Part shown: positions 6,561 to 44,489 of the stretch, in pieces
Layout of the letters: each line of letters starts with the position of its first letter
How positions within the stretch are numbered: the stretch's first letter is position 1
DNA from: Lichenostomus cassidix
Taxonomy: Eukaryota > Chordata > Aves > Passeriformes > Meliphagidae
Assembly: GCA_008360975.2 (NCBI GenBank)
Contig: CM039179.1
Span: 57,450,666-57,514,665 of the forward strand
Length of the DNA stretch: 64,000 bases
Reading direction: 5' to 3'
Program-made: the position numbers and the translations under genes
Notes under the pieces: generated by a model
Databases searched by the model: none
What the model was told of the DNA's origin: nothing
The model's input: only the letters and a program-made list of their open reading frames with translations

Positions 6561-7852
6561 AACATGTCGGTCTTTACTCACATTACTGAGTGGCTTCAAG
6601 TGTAAAATGAGACTTCTGTCATGTTAAAGTATTTGAAAATTTGTGTCCTGACATGAATTGTGTATTTTTCAATGTTTAGGCTAGTTATTTGCCTTATTAG
6701 TATAATGCTGGAAAATATGTATATTACAGAAAATATGTATAAGAGCTATCCTTCATTTCTAGCAAAAATTCTAACAAAAAAGCTAAAAGAAGGATTTATC
6801 TGTCTTTAGATCAGGTATGCAATCTAAACCAGTTGTGTAGCTCCTTTTGTATTTGCTGAAGAGAGATAAGCACTGCCAGAGAGCGATATATCTCACCTGT
6901 CTTCAGACACCTATCTTAGGATACAGGAATTGCTCTCCAGAGGTTGTCTGCATGTCTCCTTCTTACAGAGGAAAATTTCATGTCTTATTTAAAAAAAAAA
7001 ATACCTACCATCTGAATGTCAGAAAGCCAAGGTGAATTTCTTCCTATGTGTTCCTATGTGTTAGTGAAGGTCTGTTCACCTCAGTGAAAGGACCTATCCA
7101 GAATCCTCATCCAAGTTATTTTTATTCCTTAATGCAATCAATAAGCATGTCCAAAATGCAGTGTGGGATTTTCCAATCTGTTCAGTGCTCAAGCATGAAA
7201 AAGTAAGTACCAAGCCAGTGAAACCTTCAAAACTTCTTCCTTCCTCCACACAAGCTGTTCAATTCATCATTTCTTTATTGAAGCTTGCTTTTTCCTAGAT
7301 GCTACTGAACAGATTACAGAGTACCCTATGGAGAATTAAGTTCTCATAATGGTATCCTCTGCTTGGGAGTGAATTTCTCTCTGCCTTTTTTACTGTACCA
7401 CATTTATCTGCAGTTACAGTCTCTTATCTGCTGTTCTTTGTCACTCACTGTGGTACAAATATTTGGGCAGTAGACAATAAGACCAATTTATATGAATGAT
7501 CTTCCTGGTTACTACATCCATTAATTACACAAGTTGCATAAACAAGTTGCTACAGAGCTCTGTGGTCTGCTACTTTCATATTTATACACTTGTTACAGTC
7601 CTTTGCCTCCCTTACTCTCTTAATGGAACAGCATAAAGGTGCTGTGGGTACAAACAGCAGCTGTAAGGAGGAAGAGGAGGCAGTGTCAGCAGCATTAGGT
7701 GCTTTATTTTTCCGCATATTCTTGCGCCTGGCCCTGAATGCATCATGTTGTTGATGAGTAATCACAAATGGCTGTGAAAATTGTTGACAGTCAGCACTGA
7801 AGGGAGACAGCACAGAAGCTGCAGAGCTGAATAAGTGACCTTGTCTGGACAC
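6561..7852. other. Non-coding spacer, nothing recognised
   Basis: No gene or mobile element can be supported. A minus-strand open frame of 100 codons (7550-7852) runs into the TG microsatellite and shows no recognisable motif, so I treat it as chance. A 10-base direct repeat (TTCCTATGTG) occurs twice in tandem near 7040. Confidence 0.55.
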
Positions 7853-8056
7853 TGTGTGTGTGTGTCTGTGTGTTTGTGTGTGTGTCTGTGTGTGTGTGTG
7901 TGTCTGTGTGTGTCTGTGTGTGTCTGTGTGTGTGTCTGTGTGTGTGTCTGTGTGTGTGTCTGTGTGTGTGTGTGTGTGTGTGTCTGTGTGTCTGTGTGTG
8001 TGTGTCTGTGTGTGTCTGTGTGTGTCTGTGTGTCTGTGTCTGTGTGTGCGTGTGTG
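7853..8056. repeat. Interrupted (TG)n microsatellite, about 204 bp
   Basis: Nearly pure TG dinucleotide interrupted at irregular spacing by TC steps (TGTCTGTGTG type), with one TT near the start and one CG near the end. All three plus frames and at least one minus frame are open through it, giving artefactual Cys/Val and Thr/His proteins. Long alternating purine-pyrimidine tracts like this can adopt Z-DNA. The TC interruptions cluster into short phrases (TGTCTG repeated), which suggests internal slippage after the first substitutions. Confidence 0.97.
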
Positions 8057-10864
8057 AAGGCTTTGTCCTTACTCCTTTTAGTAGACTTATGGATATCCTC
8101 CTTGCTGAGTTGAAAATCAGAGCAATGAGGTAAAATAGTTCTGCTTTTGAATACCCACGGTCAGAAGACCTTATGTCATAGTTCCTATTAGCTTTAAAAT
8201 TCAGGAAGCTGTGAGATAGAACATTGGAGCAACACACACCACATCCATGAGCAAAGTCAAGACCATCACAGGTGGAGTGATGCACTTCCCTTGAAAGAGA
8301 GAAGTAGCAGTTTATTGATACAGAACTATGATTTGACTAAGTTTGTAAGTAAATGCAACAGTGATTTAAGCAGGTTCAGCTGGAAGGCTGGTCTTCACTG
8401 CTTATTGCATAGAGGACAGGGCTGGACAAAACTGTCAGGGAAGCGTTCCTGTTGAGACATAAGGTTCAGAAAGGACCTCCTTTTGTTCTAAACTCCTTTT
8501 TTAGAGGAGCTTATGTGCAGCTGGATCTGTGTATAGTCCCAAACTTGTTCAATGGTTCATATCTAAGGGACTATATATGCACAATCAATCCTTTATGTCT
8601 GTTAGCTGAGATTTCAAAGTTTCAGTGTGTTTATTCCAATTTATTTACTGAGCCTTGGATGCAAAAAGGATTCTTCTCAACCTTGAGGAGTAACCTTGAA
8701 ACATGTCCCTAATCAAGGGGAGATCCTGGCATTCAGCCCACTGCCAGGCAGGATTGCACAATGGCCCTGGACTGTCCACTATTTATTGAGTAAGATGATT
8801 GACTTATATTTGCAAACCAGTCATATTTTGGGTTGGCTTGCGCTCAACGAGCCCTCAGCTGTTGAGCAAGATTTATGGCCCTTACCTATTGTGTTGCTCT
8901 GTGTCTCCCCAGAGTACAAGTTAAGCCAAACACAGCCACCAAAACCACCACTGGTCACAATTGCTCAAGCAGAAAAGAAGGAGGGGAGAGCACATCACCA
9001 CAGTCTGTGACTAACCAAATAAATGATAACGTTAAATAAATTATATAGAGATATATGTGAACATACAGACTTATACTGGTATGAACTCATGAATGTTAGC
9101 CAGGAAATTTTAACCTCCCTTGGATTATTAAATGGTTTTATCTTCATAATTTTCTTCTTTTATGTTTGATTTTCCCCTTAACACTTCATCAGCTTTCTGA
9201 CTGAAGCAGTTAATTTACACATTTTAAAAGATATTTGATGTGTATTTGCCTGGTATCCTTACATATGCCTCTTCTCAATGGGATCCCAAATTTTTGTAAT
9301 AAGTATGCCATGGAGACTGTTATATTTTATATATGTAATGTTTGGGTATTTTTCCCCAAGTAGAGAAATGAAAATGCAGTAGGTCTTGTAGGTGATCATT
9401 GCAAATAGACACCTCTGTATTTAATTTTATTTATATAATAAATGTAATAACAAATATACATGTACCATTCAATACTATTGGATCCTTTTCACTTTTAGGA
9501 GAAAATAGGACAGTATACGTCTAAAAATACAATCATTTTAACACAATCTTCCAACAGTATTTTGTGGCCAAGGGGGTATCTCCCTTATTATTGGGTCTGT
9601 AATGAAATTATGTGCATGCTTACAAAAGACATTGGAAGGATGTCATATCATACTAGCTGTAGGTGTCTATCCTTTCACTTCTGTTTCAATACAAATACAT
9701 GTCATCTTAAGTAGGATGAAATACTGTACACACCCCCCTAAAAACAAGCCAAATCATTCATTTCAAGAATTAAAACTAGTTCTGAAAAGAACAAGATAGT
9801 TACATGAAAAGCAAAAGATGCTTAATTTCCCATGGCTCTATTTCCCTTTGTGACACACCATAATGTGCACTCCTCACCTCTTTCATTGCTTTTGCCTTTT
9901 TTTTTTTACCAAGCATCAGATTCTGTAACTCAAGATGAATTACAGTTATGAATAAACAGTGTGCATGAACCTCTGACCTCTGCTTCCTGTGATGCTAAAA
10001 GGACAAGCTTCTCCATACTGTTGGTAGTGCAAACTATTTACAAAGCCTGTCTGTAGCCTGTACACTCTATTATACAGGGCTATTATAAAACTTTACACCT
10101 TTGAGAGCTCTGTCATCTTGTCAAAATTGAATTTGCACAGAGGGCTTAGAAGGACTAATATGCTTCTTTTGGTATTGTTTTTGGCTTTTTTAATAGTATG
10201 ATATCCAAATATGTACTTTTAATGCCTCCACATCCAGATTTTTCAACATCTGTGTGACTAAATTATATGCATTTATTTTATTGGTGTCTAACCAATTAAA
10301 TACTTCTCAGTCATTCTCTGATTTCAGTTGAAGGATGACTTAATATACACTTAAACAAAGATCTTTTCCAGTTCCTTATAAATATGGCTTCTCAGATACT
10401 GTGTTTTGCCATCAAAACTACTTGTGCATGATTCAGACATTTCACTATATTTTAGATCACAAGTAGAAATTCTCTTTACAGTTACCTTACAATACTAGAT
10501 TTTTGAAAAGAAGAAATGTTAAAAGTTCTCTAGCAGTGAAATAAGAAGTGGAAAAGTATGAAGAAATACATTTTTTAAAAAAATAAACATATTCTTGGCT
10601 TGACCTTAAAATTACATGAGTACTACATGTGAGGACAAAAGAAGATGAAATTTAATAATGGATAGGACAATTAATAAGCATTTCTGCAAAAGTTTAGACC
10701 TTCTCTGTTATTAAGAATAGTGTTATTAAGAATTATTAAGAAAGATGATATGTGTTAATTGGCTGCAAGATTATTATATTTCTCTAAAATAATGTCACTA
10801 TGAAAAAGAAAGTACAATCAGAAGATGTGCTTCTAACAAAGAATAAGAAATGTGGATATTGTTA
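8057..10864. other. Non-coding spacer, nothing recognised
   Basis: No supported gene. Two plus-strand frames overlap near 8452-9010 but have no recognisable domains. 8690-9010 is somewhat richer in G and C than its surroundings and may be an eroded repeat, but I cannot assign it. Confidence 0.5.
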
Positions 10865-18212: not shown

Positions 18213-19938
18213 AAAAAAAGGGAGAATACTTAATTGCTGTTTGAAAAGGGCTTTCATTCAGAATCACATACACCTCACCAGAGTAAGAATCCTTTGTGGT
18301 GAGAGAGAAATGCTTTGAAGGAATCAGCTATAAAGAACAATTTCAATTCATGGTCCTAAACAATGTAAAAAAATGAGTCAAGCAAAACTTTCCCTAAATG
18401 TAAATCTCAATGTAAATCTCCTTTGTACTAGAAAATTTAAAAAAAACCCAAAAAAATTTTTAAAAAACACAAAAAAACCAAACCAGAAACAAATCCACAA
18501 CCAAAAAAAAGCTCCCTGCAAACAATCATTTCCAGAGTATAAGCAAATGAGTCTGCAGGATAATCATCTAAAATTATTCTCTTGTGTCTGAGACGATTTT
18601 ATCACTCCCCGAGCCACTTGTTCCCTACATTTCACTTGGGAAACAGAGTAGCATTACAGACATCTGCCACAGAGGAATAAGCCCATAGCACCAAATTTTG
18701 CATTAAAAAACTCCTGAAAATCTTGAAAGGTGTGTCATAATTAGTTTTGATATGTAATTAAGTTGTTTTCTTGGCAAGTGTCTTCCCCCTTCAGGTTTAC
18801 AGACTCTTGTACAATTTTCAGATGTATTAATTGTATTTCAGAAGAAAAAAAATCTATTTGGGGAGTTAAATAGTTCCTGACATGAACTTGCCTATATTCA
18901 TGTAAATACCATTAAAAAAGTATATGTCCCAGAAGCTGTAGAGGAATGAGATTTTGTCATCCCAGGAGTACATTTCATTTTCTATTCAAACCTATACTTG
19001 GTTAATATATTGTAACAAGATATTAGCCTTACATTTTAGAAATTAACCAAACACATAAACCAATTTGATCTCAGGACTCTCAAGACCAGTGGAACATGGG
19101 GATTGCACACAGCAAATCACAGAAATAGCACTGCATAGTGGAAGAATGCTTTCTAAGACACTATTTATGGGGAGAAGGGCCTGATTGCATTGATAGAATC
19201 TGATTAGTTAGCAAGAGAAGATGAGTTTTTATCTCTTGGGCCTCAGAGAGAGATTGTAGTGAAGGAAGACTTAATGTAAGGAAAAAAAGGGATTCTGGCC
19301 CCGTTGCAAAAGTATTAACCCCAGCAACAATCTGTGAAGCTACCTGATTCCATCTTCCTTCTAGGCATTGACCTGTGTGGCATCAATCTAACAATTTAGA
19401 TCAGGACTGACCTGATGAGGTTTTGTGAGAGAGAGAAATATTAATGATTAATGACTCAAAAAATAGGCCATTTGCTGACGATGTGTAAACAGCCCAGGTG
19501 CAGAGGGTGTGAGCACCAGAGGATGGTCATAACAAAACAGCCTTTGTTTAGTAACAAGCTGGGTTTTGAGCCACATAAGGAAAGAGACCAATAAGAAGCA
19601 GATCCTGTGAGGGAAGATAATGCTTTTTATCACACCTCAGGTGTGAAAATTCCCCTCTGGGGCAGTACAGGGGTGTTTACATATAGGCCTGAGGGTTTTC
19701 AGCCCTGCTGATGTGACACAACCAGCTCAACTACTCAGAGGCAGCTTTCATGTTTTAGAAAGTGTTATAAACCATCAGTGGTCCCAGAAATGCCCCCAGA
19801 CTAATTTCTGCGGACTTCCACTGATGGCTGGTCATGATCCACAGTGTTGCAACAGATCCACAGTGTTTCTTTAGACAGTGTAAAACTCTGCTCCCAGGGG
19901 AGGTAACCTGGGCATTCCCATGTAAACCTAAGTGTACA
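18213..19938. other. Non-coding spacer with an A/C-rich patch
   Basis: 18436-18515 is strongly A-rich with scattered C (AAAACCC and AAAACC phrases). 18398-18421 holds a 12-base tandem repeat (AATGTAAATCTC twice). No gene is recognised. The block 19480-19935 is somewhat GC-richer and abuts the solo LTR, but I could not assign it. Confidence 0.5.
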
Positions 19939-20421
19939 TGTATTACTTTGAAAACAAACCAGTGGAAGATCACAAGTCAGGATTAAAATTTAATAGGAAA
20001 AATTAAAAATAAGTGCAATAATACAAGGAAAAGCACTGACAAAGTCAGATACAACCTGACACCCTGGTAGGGTGGTGGTAGCAGTCCAAATGAAGTAGTT
20101 CAGTTGAAGCAGTGATCCTGTGAAGGTCTGGTCTCCAGCTGGAGATCCAGTAGTAGCTCTTGTCCTCTGGGAACCCAGCAGACAGCACTGCCTTGGGCAG
20201 TTCCAAGGCCAGGTTATATCCAGGTGGGAATGCTTGGCTCCTCCCTCCTGGGTGGAGCATCTCACAATAGGATGAGATAAGTCCATGAGTCATGGGGTGG
20301 ATCATTGATGGCCCATTGTCTGTTATCAGGGATGAGTCATAGCAGGAGATACCAGCTAATGGCCCACAGCTGGTGGTAATAGAATACTAAATACATCTAT
20401 ATTGTAACCTAGGACAGTATA
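19934..20421 (-). mobile_element. Solo LTR of the ERV-L-like family, minus strand, with 5-bp TSD
   Basis: The LTR itself is 19939-20416 (478 bp) and is the reverse complement of a relative of the provirus LTRs at 38470 and 43906. Shared landmarks include the TGTCCTAGGTT start (right end), the CTATTACCACCAGCTGTGGG segment, the GATATAACCTGG TATA region near 20215, and the AGTGCTTTTCCTTG segment near 20030. It is flanked by GTACA (19934-19938) and GTATA (20417-20421), a 5-bp target duplication with one mismatch. No internal viral sequence is attached, so LTR-LTR recombination has removed the body. It is clearly more diverged, and so older or from a different subfamily, than the provirus. It has only one copy of a U3 motif that the provirus LTR carries twice. 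Confidence 0.92.
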
Positions 20422-38445: not shown

Positions 38446-38469
38446 AACCTAGGTATGAACCTAGGTATG
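38446..38469. repeat. 12-bp tandem duplication abutting the provirus, including its left TSD
   Basis: AACCTAGGTATG occurs twice in tandem (38446-38457 and 38458-38469). The last five bases, GTATG, are the left target-site duplication of the provirus. The duplication may predate integration, since the integrase target lies at the end of the second unit. Confidence 0.9.
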
Positions 38470-38980
38470 TGTCCTAAGTTGCAATATTGATGTAGTTAAG
38501 TATTCTATTACCACCAGCTGTGGGCCATTAGCTGCTATCACCCACTCCGGATGACAGGCAATGGGCCATCCGTTAGCTATTATCACTTGCTAATGACCCA
38601 CCCCGCATGACAGGCAATGGGCCATCAGGGACCCACCGTGTGACTCATGGACTTATCTCATCCCATTGTGAGATGCTCTGCCGAGGAGGGAGGAGCCAGG
38701 TGTTCCCACCTGGATATAACCTGGCCCTGGAACTGCCTGAGCTAGCCCTGTCTACTGGGCTCCCAGAGGACCAGAGCTACCACTGGATCTTCAGCTGAAG
38801 ACTAGACCTTCACAAGATCACCACTTCAACTAGACTACTTCAGTTAGACTGCTACTACCACCCTAACAGGGTGTTAGGTTGTATCTGACTTTGTCAGTGC
38901 TTTTCCTTGTATTATTTCACTTATTTTTAATTTCAATCTTGACTTGTGATCTCCCACTAGTTTGTTTTCAAACCAACACA
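38470..38980 (+). repeat. 5' LTR of the provirus (511 bp)
   Basis: Starts TGTCCTAAG and ends CAACACA. A candidate TATA box (TATAA) is at 38715-38719 inside the context CACCTGGATATAACCTGG, placing U3 to its left. U3 carries a direct repeat, ATGACAGGCAATGGGCCATC at 38551-38570 and again at 38607-38626 (56-bp offset), with similar flanks. I see no canonical AATAAA. Compared with the 3' LTR there are 8 substitutions, 7 of them G/A, plus one 1-bp gap. Confidence 0.96.
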
Positions 38981-38985
38981 TTTTT

Positions 38986-39003
38986 TGGCGCCCAACGTGA
39001 GGC
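38986..39003 (+). other. Primer binding site, tRNA-Lys type
   Basis: TGGCGCCCAACGTGAGGC begins five bases after the 5' LTR end. It matches the complement of the 3' end of the lysine tRNA used by foamy viruses, visna and MPMV (Lys1,2 type) at 17 of 18 positions, as I remember that sequence. The single mismatch, at 39000, is an A where G is expected, the same direction as the changes in the coding region. Confidence 0.88.
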
Positions 39004-39060
39004 TCGACCTAAGGAAACTCAGAAAATCCTATCACCATGCTCAGCCTGTCTATGTGAGTA

Positions 39061-40752
39061 ATGTATCTTACCCTTTATATTTTCCCTCAAATGGGAAACT
39101 ATCTACCCGTTGCATTGCTCCTGTTGCGACCAGGGAATGGCATGAGAATTGCTGTATTGGTTTATTATGCCTATTGCATGGTAACCTGTGAGGCAATGAA
39201 CACCATTCGAAATATATACTCGACTTTGTCTGCCTGACCTAACCTGAGCTGCTTCGTCTGAGACCTCCTCAGCAATCGCACCCACCCTCTCCGGCTAGGA
39301 GGAGAGAGTGGTTTCTTCCAGCATTTCAGGTCAGGCACAGCCATCTTTGACAATATTGAGTTCTTTCTGGATGCTAAAAATGGCATAATCTTCCTGTTAG
39401 TTCTGTTTTCTTTCTTCTCTGCGACCAGCACAGTGTACCTCATGCTGAAGAACAGAAAAATACTTTGTCTTCTTGAGGAGGAGAAACGAAGCAAATCAGC
39501 AGGCAAGAAGAAAAGAACCAAAAGAGCAGTCGACGTCTCAACACAGACCATTACCAAATCAGAACAGCTGAAGCCCGTAGCAGTTGCCCCCGTCCAGAAA
39601 AAGAAATCCAAGAGCAAGTCAGTCCGCATAGCGACTGATGAGGATGCGGCAGGACCATCCCACCAAGCAGAAGAGACAGAACCAGAGATCATCACTCGCT
39701 CTCTATCCCTGGGGGAGCTGCGTGACCTACGGAGGGAATTCACCCGGCAGGCGAATGAGTCCATCTTGACCTGGCTGCTCCGTATCTGGGACGCCGCAGC
39801 TAATGACACTATTCTAGATAGAAATGAAGCCAGACAACTGGGATCCCTGTCTCAAGATGTGGTCATTGACCAGGGGATTGAGAAAACCCAAGAAACTCTC
39901 AGCCTCTGGCGGCGATTGCTGCTGAGTGTACGGGACAGATACCTGTGCAAAGAAAACCTCCAGATGCACCAAAAGAAATAGAACACAATAAAACAAGGTA
40001 TCCGATGCCTGAGGGAATTGGCCGTGCTAGAGATCATTTTCTCAGACAACGAGAGATTCCCCAAGAGCCCAGATAATGTCCAGTGCACTTCACAAATGTG
40101 GCTAAGATTCGCGCGGCTCGGACCAGAGATATACTCTCGTTACCTAGCAACATTACAGTGGAGGGAAGGCGAAAACCAGGTGGGCGTATTAGCAAACAAA
40201 CTGAAAATTTATGAGGACACTGTCACCGCCCCACTACGCACCCAGGTCTCATCGGTAGAAACAAACCTGGCCGAGCAAGTCCGGAGATTGATTGAAGAGA
40301 GCCATCAGAAACTAAGGAAAGAGCTCACAGAAAGATTTTTCCATGCCACACCAAAACCAACCAGAGTCTCTGCCATCAGGAGCAGACGTACTCCAGTCAG
40401 GGAAAGAAAACAAACTCCACGACGTGACCTCTGGTTTTTCCTTCAAGAGCATGGAGAAGACATGAGGAAGTGAGATAGAAAACCCACCTCCACCTTAGCA
40501 GCCCGGGTACGTGAATTGAAAACAGAAACATCCACCTCAGGAGGCTCATCTAGGTACAACACTGCCCCAGTCTCTTGTAGACAGAACCCCCGACAGAATA
40601 GAAAAAATAATATAACTAATCCTCTTGAAGGAACCTCAGGAACACATTTACGGGAGAAGAGCACCACGCACCAAAAACAAGATTAGAGGAACCCTGCCTC
40701 TAGCCAGGTAGAGGAAAGGGATAACCGGATCTATTGGACTGTGTGGATCCGA
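39061..40752 (+). pseudogene. gag: Degenerate gag of the ERV-L-like provirus
   Basis: Gag would form the virion core. The frame is open from an ATG at 39061. A second ATG at 39091 gives Met-Gly-Asn, a plausible myristoylation start, and I favour that one. Two hydrophobic segments follow (39142-39189 and 39382-39447), then a Lys/Arg-rich stretch (from about 39448), then from 39703 a capsid-like region with LSLWRRLL (from 39898) continuing past 40400. No Cys-Cys-His-Cys zinc knuckle is visible toward the C-terminus, which is instead polar and basic. In-frame stops are at 39235 (TGA), 39259 (TGA), 39979 (TAG), 40471 (TGA) and 40684 (TAG). The last could be the original gag end. No frameshift is seen. 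Two open pieces remain, 39433-39981 and 40018-40473. The capsid assignment rests on resemblance to avian ERV-L gag proteins. Confidence 0.85.
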
Positions 40753-41055
40753 TAGCCTGGCACGTCTGACCCACAAAGATACACGGCTTTGGTTGATACT
40801 GGCGCTCAGTGCACCCTGATGCCATCCAGGTATGTGGGGACCAAATCCATTTCTATTTCTGGGGTGACAGGAGGATCCCAGCAGCTGACTGTACTGGAAG
40901 CTAAAGTGAGTTTAACTGAGAATGAATGGCAGAAACACCCCATCGTGACTAGTCCAGACGCCCCATGCATCCTCAGCATAAATTATCTCAAGAGTGGATA
41001 TTTCAAAGACCCAAAGGGACATCGCTAACCTTTTGAGATAGCAGCCGTAGAGACA
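40753..41055 (+). pseudogene. pro: Degenerate retroviral aspartic protease (pro)
   Basis: The domain would cleave the Gag-Pol polyprotein as a dimer. The active-site loop reads Leu-Val-Asp-Thr-Gly-Ala with the catalytic Asp codon at 40795, so the D-T-G core is retained. A Gly/Ser-rich flap-like stretch (VTGGSQQL) follows at about 40864. Stops interrupt at its N-terminal edge (TAG 40753) and near its end (TAA 41026), the latter needing two G-to-A changes if it was tryptophan. It is in the same frame as gag and pol, without overlap or frameshift. The piece 40789-41028 remains open. Confidence 0.88.
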
Positions 41056-42480
41056 GAAGACATAAGACAACTGAATACCCTGCCTGGTCTCTCAGACAAC
41101 CCGTCTGCTGTAGAACTACTGAGAATTGAAGAACAGCGAGTACCAATCGCTACAGCAACAGTGCACCGCCGGCAATACCGCACTGACAGAGACTCTGTGG
41201 CCCCCATCCATAAGATGATTCGGGATCTGGAGAGCCAAGGGGTGGTCAGCAAGGCTCACTCACCCTTTAACAGCCCTATATAGCCAGTGCGTAAGTCCAG
41301 TGAAAAATAGAAACTGACAGTAGATTACTGTAGCCTGAATGAAGTCACACCACCACTGAGTGCTGCTGTACCGGACATGTTGAAACTTCAGTACGAGCTG
41401 GAATCCAAGGCAGCAAAGTGGTATGCGACCATTGATATTGCCAATGCCTTTTTCTCCATTCCTCTGGCAGCAGAGTGCAGGCCTCAGTTTGCTTTCACCT
41501 GGAGAGGTGTGCAGTACACATGAGACCAACTGCCCCAGGGGTGGAAGCACAGTCCCACCATCTGCCATGGACTGATCCAGGCTGCACTGAAAAAGGGTGA
41601 GGCTCCAGAACATCTGCAGTATATTAATGACATCATTATGTGGGGAGACACAGCAACGGAAGTATTTGGGAAAAGAGAGAAAATCATCAGAATTCTCCTG
41701 GAAGCCGGTTTCGCCATCAAGAAGAGCAAAGTCAAGAGACCTGCCCGAGAGATCCAGTTCCTGGGAGTAAAGTAGCAAAACGGACGGCGTCAAATTCCTT
41801 CTGAGGTCATCAATAAGATCATCGCGATGTCTCCACCAACCAACAAGAAGGAGACGCAAGCTTTCCTAAGCGCCATAGGTTTTTAGAGAATACACATCCC
41901 TGAGTACAGCCAAATTGTGAGTCCTCTCTACCTCATAACCCGCAAGAAGAATGATTTCCACTGGGGCCCTGAACAGCAGCAAGCCTTCACCCAGATCAAA
42001 CAAGAGATTGCTCATGCGGTAGCCCTTGGCCCAGTCAGGACAGGACCAGAGGTAAAGAATGTGCTTTACTCTGCAGCCGGGAGCCATGGTCTGTCCTGGA
42101 GCCTTTGGCAGAAGGTGCCTGGTGAGACCCGAAGTCGACCACTAAGATTCTAGAGTCAAAGTTACAGAGAGTCTAAAGTCAACTACACTCCCACCGAGAA
42201 AAAAATCTTGGCAGCTTACGAAGGAGTCCAAGCTGCCTCAGAGGTGATCAGCACAGAAACACAACTTCTCCTTGCACCCCGACTGCCAGTGCTGGGGTGG
42301 ATGTTCAAGGGAAGGGTTCCCTCTACTCACCATGCCACTGATGCCACGTGGAGCAAATGGATTGCCCTCATCACACAGCGCGCCCGTATTAGAAACCCAA
42401 ATCGCCCTAAAATTCTAAAAATTATAACAAACTAGCCTGAAGGTGAAACTTTTAAATTATCTTCAGAAAAAACAGAAGAA
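41056..42480 (+). pseudogene. pol: Degenerate reverse transcriptase (pol)
   Basis: This would copy viral RNA into DNA. Motifs in order are ATIDIANAFFSIP (first catalytic Asp, GAT at 41434, retained), LPQGWKHSP (41530 onward), and the active-site box at 41620, which reads YIND. The first Asp of the expected YxDD is now Asn (AAT at 41626), which by itself should abolish activity. The connection region runs to about 42480. In-frame stops are at 41281, 41308, 41521, 41773, 41884, 42151 and 42433. Several sit where reverse transcriptases carry conserved tryptophans. No frameshift is present. The 199-codon minus-strand frame over 41260-41859 is a shadow of this gene. Confidence 0.93.
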
Positions 42481-42990
42481 AAAATAGCACGTGCCGAAAA
42501 ACCACCCCCATATAATGAGCTGCCAGAGAGTGAAAAACGCTATACCCTCTTCACCAATAAGTCCTGCCGAATTATAGGCGCAGATCAGAAATAGAAAGCT
42601 GCAGTATAGAACCCCACACGACAAGCTGTACAAGCTACCGAGAGACAAGGTGGATCAAGCCAGGTCGCGGAGCTTAAAGCCATCCAACTGGCTTTAGATA
42701 TTGCCAAACGAGAGAAATAGCCAAGGCTTTATCTCTACACCGACTCTTAAATGATAGCCAACGCACTATGGAGATGGTTAGATCGCTGGAGAAAGGCTAA
42801 CTAGCAGCGCAGAGGAAAACCCATCTAGGCCGCTGAGATTTGGCAGGACATCGCCGCCCGGGCAGAAAAGCTGACTGTGAAAGTTCGACACGTGGATGCA
42901 CATATACCTAAGAGTCGAGCTAATGAAGAGCATCGTAACAACGAGCAAGTGGACCGAGCTGCCAAGGTGGAAGTGTCACAAGTAGATCTA
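42481..42990 (+). pseudogene. pol: Degenerate RNase H domain of pol
   Basis: It would remove the RNA strand of the RNA-DNA hybrid. The first active-site box (from 42541) reads YTLFTNKSC. The expected Asp is Asn (AAT, 42556) and the following Gly is Lys, again G-to-A type changes. The Glu in VAELKAIQLAL (42670), the Asp in LYLYTDS (42742) and the Asp in HVDAH (42895) are retained. Stops are at 42592, 42607, 42718, 42748, 42802 and 42826, the densest cluster in the element, and all are compatible with tryptophan codons. The frame continues directly from reverse transcriptase into integrase. Confidence 0.9.
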
Positions 42991-43926
42991 GACTGGCAGC
43001 ACAAAAGAGAATTATTTCTAGCTCGTTAAGCCCATGATGCCTCTGGTCATCAAGAGAGAGATGCGACATACAAGTGAGCTCGTGACCGAGGAGTAGACTT
43101 GACCATGGACAACATCTCACAGGTCATCCACAGCTGTGAAACTTGCGCTGCAATCAAACAGGCCAAGCGGGTGAAGCCTCTGTGGTATGGTGGACGATGG
43201 TCAAAGTACAGGTATGGGGAAGTATGGCAAGTTGACTACATCACCCTTCCCCAAACCCGCCAAGGAAAGCGCTACGTGTTGACCATGGTAGAAGCAACCA
43301 CGGAATAGTTAGAGACCTACCCTGTGCCTCATGCTACTACCCAAAACACCATCTTGAGTCTAAAAAAGCAAGTCCTGTGGAGACATAGTACCCCTGAGAA
43401 AATCGAGTCTGACAATGAAACCCATTTCAAGAATGACCTCATAAGCACCTGGGCTAGAAAACACAAAATTGAATAGATATACCACATCCCCTATCATGCA
43501 CCAGCTGCCGGGAAAGTTGAACGGTGCAACGGACTACTTAAGACAACTTTAAAAGCACTTGGCGAGGGAACCTTCAAAAATTGAGAACTAAACTTAACAA
43601 AAGCCACCTAGATAGTTAACACAAGGGGTTCTATCAATCGAGCCAGTCCTGCCGAGTCTGAACCTTTGCACACAGTAGATAAAGATAAAGTCCCTGTGGT
43701 ACACGTAAGAAGTTTCTTAAGAAAGACTGTTTAGATTAGTCCCACCTCAGAGAAAAGCAAACCCATCCGTGGAGTGGTTTTTGCCCAAAGACCTGGTTAT
43801 ACTTGATGGGTGATGCAGGCAGATGAAGAAACCCGTTGTGTCCCACAAAAAAACCTTATCTTAAGTGAGAACTGTGTAGATGGTAATAGAATAAGGGGTG
43901 GAAAATGTCCTAGGTTGCAATATTGA
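42991..43926 (+). pseudogene. pol: Degenerate integrase of pol, running into the 3' LTR
   Basis: It would insert viral DNA into the chromosome. An HHCC zinc-binding module is visible: His codons at 43033 and 43048, Cys codons at 43135 and 43144. The catalytic triad is retained: Asp 43234 (WQVDY), Asp 43411 (SDN) and Glu 43519 (GKVER), with 35 residues between the last two (DD35E). Stops are at 43027, 43075, 43306, 43474, 43582, 43609, 43732 and 43804. The frame ends at TGA 43924-43926, about 18 bases inside the 3' LTR. No env frame and no dUTPase follow. The C-terminal part contains RSFLRK and VVFAQ segments typical of the end of this type of integrase, which is inference. Confidence 0.93.
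43893..43905 (+). other. Polypurine tract
   Basis: AAGGGGTGGAAAA lies directly before the TGTCC start of the 3' LTR, with 12 of 13 bases purine. It would prime plus-strand DNA synthesis. It overlaps the last codons of the integrase frame. Confidence 0.85.
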
Positions 43927-44415
43927 TGTAGTTAAATATTCTATTACCACCAGCTGTGGGCCATTAGCTGCTATCACCCACTCCGGATGACAGGCAATGG
44001 GCCATCCGTTAGCTATTATCACTTGCTAATGACCCACCCCGCATGACAGGCAATGGGCCATCAGGGACCCACCGTGTGACTCATGAACTTATCTCATCCC
44101 ATTGTGAGATGCTCTGCCGAAGAGGGAAGAGCCAGGTGTTCCCACCTGGATATAACCTGGCCCTGGAACTGCCTGAGCTAGCCCTGTCTACTGGGTTCCC
44201 AGAGGACCAGAGCTACACTAGATCTTCAGCTGAAGACTAGACCTTCACAAGATCACCACTTCAACTGGACTACTTCAGTTAGACTGCTACTACCACCCTA
44301 ACAGGGTGTTAGGTTGTATCTGACTTTGTCAGTGCTTTTCCTTGTATTATTTCACTTATTTTTAATTTCAATCTTGACTTGTGATCTCCCACTAGTTTGT
44401 TTTCAAACCAACACA
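43906..44415 (+). repeat. 3' LTR of the provirus (510 bp)
   Basis: Starts TGTCCTAGG and ends CAACACA, with TATAA at 44151-44155. It differs from the 5' LTR by seven G/A differences (five with A here, two with A in the 5' LTR), one C/T difference and a 1-bp deletion near 44218. It carries the same U3 direct repeat. The first bases provide the stop codon of the pol frame. Confidence 0.96.
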
Positions 44416-44489
44416 GTATGATAAGCCATTCTGTGTAATTTTGCTCTAAAAACAATTCTGATATCTAAATACAACAGTTTTGGTTTTTT

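Follow-up and report, generated by a model that had tools for sequence, protein, structure and literature searches.

Strand-specific G>A hypermutation, with a bias towards the 3′ LTR, in an endogenous retrovirus family of Lichenostomus cassidix

In the action of APOBEC3G on human immunodeficiency virus type 1 (HIV-1), G>A changes on the plus strand favour GG and place stops at tryptophan codons; to our knowledge, birds lack APOBEC3 enzymes, which leave such one-way damage on viruses in mammals. Here we examine a stretch of 64,000 nucleotides from the genome of the bird Lichenostomus cassidix (the window), which contains an endogenous retrovirus (ERV) flanked by two long terminal repeats (LTRs) and whose gag-pro-pol frame is interrupted by 28 stop codons. 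The changes responsible run in one direction and in a narrow sequence context, are nearly independent between copies of the family, rise towards the 3′ end and, family-wide, are biased towards the 3′ LTR. In our view this env-less copy was very probably hypermutated at birth by a host cytosine deaminase.

Ultra-edited LTR elements have been reported in zebra finch (Knisbacher and Levanon 2016, as quoted in PMC12548423 and PMC6523648), where the maximum of 71.5 G>A per kb was found in TguERVl1_I-int (392 of 475 mismatches; quoted in PMC12548423). In mouse Mtv proviruses, the G>A changes that distinguish the two LTRs of a pair lie almost wholly in the 3′ LTR, which has been attributed to a second period in which the minus strand of the 3′ LTR is single-stranded; mouse APOBEC3 is described as acting in the contexts GAX or G(G/A)A (PMC12548423). 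The relevant passages of the same paper state that a 3′-LTR-biased G>A pattern was unreported for proviruses beyond the mouse ones, and our literature search, in which subscription journals were thinly covered, found no report of such a pattern in birds. APOBEC3 enzymes are described as specific to eutherian mammals (PMC5399452). Both the zebra finch and the green anole have APOBEC1 homologues, and that of the anole is reported to be a DNA mutator (PMC3880073).

Stop codons, substitution spectrum and sequence context

The LTR element occupies positions 38470–44415 of the window on the plus strand. Its frame (39061–43926) fills the body and extends into the 3′ LTR, leaving no space for env; over the same interval the remaining forward frames hold 92 and 96 stops. 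We counted 29 stop codons in the frame, the last of which is its end, leaving 28 internal stops (18 TAG, seven TGA and three TAA). Thirty TGG codons are left, and five of the seven internal TGA codons are followed by G. These figures agree with those of the initial annotation, which had also derived every stop from TGG.

A comparison with 358 proteins, based on 427 alignments in frame with the window, bears out most of that derivation. Of the 28 internal stops, 26 align to positions at which the bird relatives most often have tryptophan. The stop at 39235 faces cysteine in all four alignments that cover it, in a stretch covered by few relatives, and the stop at 40684 faces only gaps in both of its alignments. 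All 28 codons can thus be reached from TGG, but the relatives show tryptophan at only 26 of them. When a column was counted as conserved if at least 80% of at least four relatives carry tryptophan, the window held 56 conserved tryptophan columns, comprising 26 stops and 30 TGG codons. None of the 48 glutamine or 39 arginine columns is a stop, and C>T has struck none of the 57 columns encoded by CAG, CAA or CGA (26/56 versus 0/57, p = 2.5e-10). Among the 1043 conserved columns as a whole, 136 differ in the window. A single base change accounts for these as G>A in 97 columns, A>G in seven, C>T in four and T>C in two; at least two changes are needed in 14, nine of which fit a double G>A (Gly>Lys, Trp>TAA), and the remaining differences are transversions or ambiguous.

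To compare the window with its own family, the first bases of the LTR (a query reaching 31 bases into it) were searched against the 1.10 Gb assembly (514 contigs). Scoring 40 of 132 first candidates gave 39 LTR-start matches besides the window, 14 of which have gag at the expected offset and were taken as sister proviruses. Pieces of about 1.1 kb from gag, reverse transcriptase (RT) and integrase (IN) were aligned separately for the 14 sisters and the window, and the 3049 sites at which a panel of four low-A sisters agree served as the reference. Relative to this panel the window copy has changed by G>A at 96 of the 819 G sites and by C>T at only five of the 751 C sites (p = 1.3e-22), with A>G at 2/872, T>C at 4/607 and two transversions. 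All ten sisters outside the panel share the excess, having 54 to 236 G>A changes (of 819) and 0 to 7 C>T changes. Depending on the copy, the pieces hold between 0 and 30 in-frame stops in 964–1102 codons, and the window copy, with 18, is therefore a middling case. Substitutions private to the window, counted in gag only, comprise eight G>A, no C>T, two A>G and three T>C, and none of the eight private G>A sites is followed by G; this count is the weaker one, because many sites have been edited in several copies at once.

The changes are also selective in their context. By dinucleotide, the window copy is edited at 51 of 212 GG, 29 of 258 GA, 6 of 163 GC and 5 of 143 GT sites (GG versus GC and GT together, 11/306, p = 2.1e-12), and within the tryptophan columns GpG was edited at 26 of 68 sites compared with 3 of 44 for GpH (p = 1.4e-4). 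Pooling the 11 edited copies resolves the trinucleotides. GGA (367/780, 47%) and GAA (223/772, 29%) are prominent, with GGT at 129/362 and GGC at 156/455; GGG (67/487, 14%) and GAG (52/676, 8%) are lower, and the GC and GT classes span 0.7–10% (GTA 18/175, 10%; GTG 10/480; GCG 1/148). Written on the minus strand, the preferred site is 5′-T(C/T)C. G after C is not a preferred target (C[G]G 44/182 versus A[G]G 220/588, pooled), so that CpG decay is not the source. The alignment to sister copies that the initial annotation had proposed as a check, with G>A set against C>T and with context, has therefore yielded a spectrum far from balanced, and its hypermutation reading is upheld by one-sided G>A in the order GG, then GA, then, far below, GC and GT.

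The 5′-to-3′ gradient and the LTR pairs

Editing increases along the element. In all but one of the 11 edited copies the rate is higher in IN than in gag, with a rise through RT that is unsteady in some copies; the pooled G>A counts are 383/2858 in gag, 508/3157 in RT and 645/2882 in IN. The LTRs offer a comparison that needs no outside reference, since both LTRs of one provirus share one template. Across 15 copies the pairs differ at 138 sites with G in the 5′ LTR and A in the 3′ LTR and at 29 sites with the reverse arrangement, in addition to 20 C/T differences and 12 transversions. The base following the 138 sites is G in 78 cases, A in 42, C in 13 and T in five. Counted by copy, A lies mainly in the 3′ LTR in 12, mainly in the 5′ LTR in two, and one pair shows no difference (12/14, p = 0.013). 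Six of the 15 pairs differ by G/A alone and eight carry other differences too, the pair without any difference making up the number. We also note that the 29 sites of reverse arrangement, when pooled, again lie mostly in GG and GA contexts (26/29).

The two LTRs of the window copy differ by eight substitutions in 510 compared bases and by a one-base gap. All eight are transitions and seven are G/A, so that outside this class only one C/T difference and one indel separate them, which indicates a young insertion. The initial annotation had used the LTR divergence as a clock. Its count of eight in about 510 is reproduced, but the figure is unfit to date the copy, because seven of the eight differences are of the edit type and an age calculated from all of them would be overstated.

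Taken together, the gradient and the 3′-LTR bias point, for the family as a whole, to editing of the minus strand in the course of reverse transcription, and we infer that editing preceded integration. Under the mechanism that we propose, the minus-strand cDNA would be exposed while single-stranded during reverse transcription to a host cytosine deaminase that converts C to U with a preference for 5′-T(C/T)C; plus-strand synthesis would fix each U as a G-to-A change, 26 of the 56 conserved tryptophan codons would be broken in this way, and the dead copy would then integrate.

Several observations weigh against this interpretation. The panel was picked for copies with few A's, which leans the count towards G>A, and two of its four members themselves carry stops in the pieces (five and three); the protein-column and LTR-pair tests are independent of the panel. 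The window taken alone has a weak gradient (10, 11 and 14% through gag, RT and IN) and a weak LTR asymmetry, with A in the 3′ LTR at five sites and in the 5′ LTR at two. In two sisters, C9 and C33a, A lies mainly in the 5′ LTR, at 13 sites each, and the simple model fails there. Four further sisters (C8, C18, C2b and C1) have no matching 5-bp target duplication, perhaps as a result of recombination between copies. The LTR pairs of these four differ almost solely by G/A.

Candidate editors and alternative explanations

A genome profile search with the APOBEC_N model (PF08210) gave seven matches at five loci, which are listed in Table 1. Three of these, AID and two APOBEC1-like loci, form a small deaminase cluster within about 20 kb (C1 85782417–85803382), and both APOBEC1-like frames keep the zinc motif H-A-E ... 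P-C-x-x-C. APOBEC3 gives the best Pfam score at none of the five loci found with PF08210. Judged from these sequences, one of the two APOBEC1-like deaminases beside AICDA is most likely the editor. We lean, by a modest degree, towards the wider proposal that duplicated APOBEC1-like genes beside AICDA took over the job of APOBEC3 in a lineage without it, and that their products would enter the particle, edit the minus strand at T(C/T)C and reach the displaced strand of the 3′ LTR last. A point against an APOBEC1-like editor is that the farther locus, C1:85803017, is not clearly APOBEC1: its score of 91 bits with PF18769 is exceeded by those with PF18750 (132), PF18778 (112), PF18774 (112) and PF18772 (100), and among solved structures it matches APOBEC3G (a two-domain chain) at 82.9 bits and APOBEC1 at 69.8.

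AID itself, whose gene is present at C1:85782417-85783566, is an unlikely editor. It prefers WRC, read as GYW from the plus strand, and this predicts that GC and GT should be favoured, yet these are the least edited dinucleotides in the window copy (6/163 and 5/143). Where the initial annotation had left the choice among AID, an APOBEC1-like deaminase and some other editor, the AID part is thus made unlikely by context and the APOBEC1-like loci stand as the better candidates. An editor of some other kind, outside the AID/APOBEC family, we regard as improbable. The candidate enzymes are known from sequence and the genome search reaches only relatives of PF08210, which leaves such an enzyme some room, but the direction, dinucleotide context, 3′-ward rise and 3′-LTR bias match those described for mouse APOBEC3 (PMC12548423), and APOBEC1-like loci are present in the genome.

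It is very improbable that the stops were inherited, the window copy being the descendant of an already edited master that was re-mobilized in trans. A re-copied edited provirus has been inferred in mice (Mtv17/Mtv23; PMC12548423), and stops are indeed shared in part: at the 18 window stops that fall inside the pieces, the 252 sister cells comprise 139 tryptophans, 111 stops, one other residue and one gap. Repeated hits at favoured sites, however, predict much of this sharing. We compared the 11 edited copies two by two (55 pairs), classing each site by its piece, the single base that precedes it and the two that follow, and found 2365 common edits where 2204 were expected, or 1.07 times chance (median z 0.95, range −1.3 to 3.5); a coarser grouping gave a median z of 1.8 and a highest value of 3.9. 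The slight excess counts against full independence, as do the two pairs with z above 3 and the window's top overlap with an edited sister, which is 50 of its 91 context-scored edits where 39.8 were expected (z 3.0). On the other hand, 50 of 91 is the highest overlap, and 11 of these 91 edits have no counterpart in any of the other ten edited copies. With context taken into account, sharing stands close to what chance would give, so that the stops do not form a single inherited set; that explanation was rejected on the overlap test. Stops shared with related copies, which the initial annotation had named as evidence against editing of this copy, are thus found in part, yet shared edits stand close to the chance level. 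The most consistent interpretation is that the copies were edited mostly independently, with slight inheritance possible.

Ordinary decay after insertion, by random mutation and CpG deamination, is hardly credible as the source of the stops, as the initial annotation had argued: the copy is dead and any old copy gathers stops, but this explanation is ruled out by a one-sided spectrum (C>T 5/751 versus G>A 96/819), by the lack of preference for G after C, where CpG loss should strike both strands, and by LTRs that differ beyond G/A at so few positions. Hypermutation by a host deaminase remains our reading of this copy.

Layout of the element and comparison with known systems

Table 1. Positions of the features of the element in the window and of the deaminase loci found in the genome
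Feature	Position	Strand	Remarks
5′ target-site duplication gtatg	38465..38469	.	Abuts 5′ LTR; same 5 bp directly past 3′ LTR
5′ LTR, 511 bp, TG...CA	38470..38980	+	LTR pair; at least 39 other genomic places match first bases
gag-pro-pol frame, 28 internal stops and 30 TGG	39061..43926	+	Frame count; domain matches on stop-free pieces
gag piece aligned to sister copies	39575..40685	+	Window G>A 27/270 panel-agreed G sites
Reverse transcriptase / RNase H piece aligned to sisters	41200..42300	+	Window G>A 32/287
RNase H end / integrase (IN) piece aligned to sisters	42760..43860	+	Window G>A 37/262
3′ LTR, 510 bp	43906..44415	+	A in 3′ LTR at 5/7 G/A differences from 5′ LTR
3′ target-site duplication gtatg	44416..44420	.	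Matches 5′ copy
AID (AICDA)	C1:85782417-85783566	Opposite to APOBEC1-like loci	Best solved-structure match of one exon AID, 182.6 bits
APOBEC1-like locus, nearer	C1:85792406	Opposite to AID	About 9 kb from AID; PF18769 153 bits, PF18774 160 bits; among solved structures closest to APOBEC1 (117 bits)
APOBEC1-like locus, farther	C1:85803017	Opposite to AID	About 20 kb from AID; PF18769 91 bits, cut-off 27
APOBEC2-like frame	C28		PF08210 match
APOBEC4-like frame	C11		NAD1 64.7 bits, APOBEC4 61 bits

Domain searches of ten stop-free pieces of the frame placed one protease piece (23.1 bits, curated cut-off 20.7) and one RT piece (36.3 bits, cut-off 29.6) above the curated cut-offs, and a further RT piece, an RNase H-like piece and two integrase pieces below them. 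An 83-residue RT piece matches five distinct solved sequences (7ksf, 7kse, 7o0h, 7o0g and 7o24; E 5e-5 to 2e-4), which we take to be spumavirus entries. A putative primer site directly 3′ of the 5′ LTR is presumably lysine-tRNA-like. Among the best 120 matches in each of three protein searches (of 138, 1177 and 338), all named species are birds, as is generally known of them, and many are songbirds; the genera listed include Hirundo, Zosterops, Cyanocitta, Corvus and Grus, among others. A search of viral contigs returned one pattern match and no relative.

Elsewhere in the window, a diverged LTR at 19938–20416 on the minus strand is about 78–83% like that of the element. Internal parts of the element have no second match within the 64-kb window, and for this reason the sequence probably represents an older solo LTR from this family or a related one. 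An open frame at 7791–8285 (minus strand) is largely a simple His-Thr-rich repeat and is probably not a gene.

Strand-specific DNA editing has thus inactivated members of a young retrovirus family in a bird whose genome, searched with PF08210, yielded no clear APOBEC3 gene. The trinucleotide preference of the editor is now given and two testable candidate genes are named, while the 3′-LTR-biased G>A mark is extended from mouse proviruses to an avian family whose LTRs measure about 510 bp. The results also call for caution with LTR dating, since divergence between LTRs gives too high an age for ERVs in edited families of this kind. If APOBEC1-like enzymes did take over the role of APOBEC3, a 3′-LTR bias of G>A would be a general vertebrate mark of deaminase attack, and LTR dating of bird ERVs would be distorted wherever the bias occurs.

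As with APOBEC3G and HIV-1, the plus-strand G>A changes favour GG and produce stops at tryptophan codons. The family differs from that system in having GA as a second context, in the poor editing of GGG (67/487) and in that no locus scores best as APOBEC3 in Pfam. Ultra-edited bird ERVs are already known, and the G>A excess is like that of the zebra finch LTR elements; at panel-agreed sites the density is about 29 per kb in the window copy (96 edits over about 3.3 kb) and about 71 per kb in the most heavily edited sister (236 edits), set against the quoted zebra finch maximum of 71.5. What is added here is the resolved context, the near-independence of the copies, the gradient and the 3′-LTR bias; the zebra finch accounts, as far as they are quoted, are silent on the bias, gradient and context in birds. 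The family resembles the mouse Mtv proviruses described in PMC12548423: the 3′-LTR bias is shared, and the context G(G/A)A is among those given for mouse APOBEC3. The bird family fits the account given there for the 3′ LTR with LTRs of about 510 bp, whereas those of mouse mammary tumour virus (MMTV) exceed 1,300 bp. The 3′-LTR pattern is found in four of 21 two-LTR copies among the Mtvs, where the enzyme is mouse APOBEC3, while in the bird family, for which the enzyme would be a candidate avian deaminase, A lies mainly in the 3′ LTR in 12 of 15 copies.

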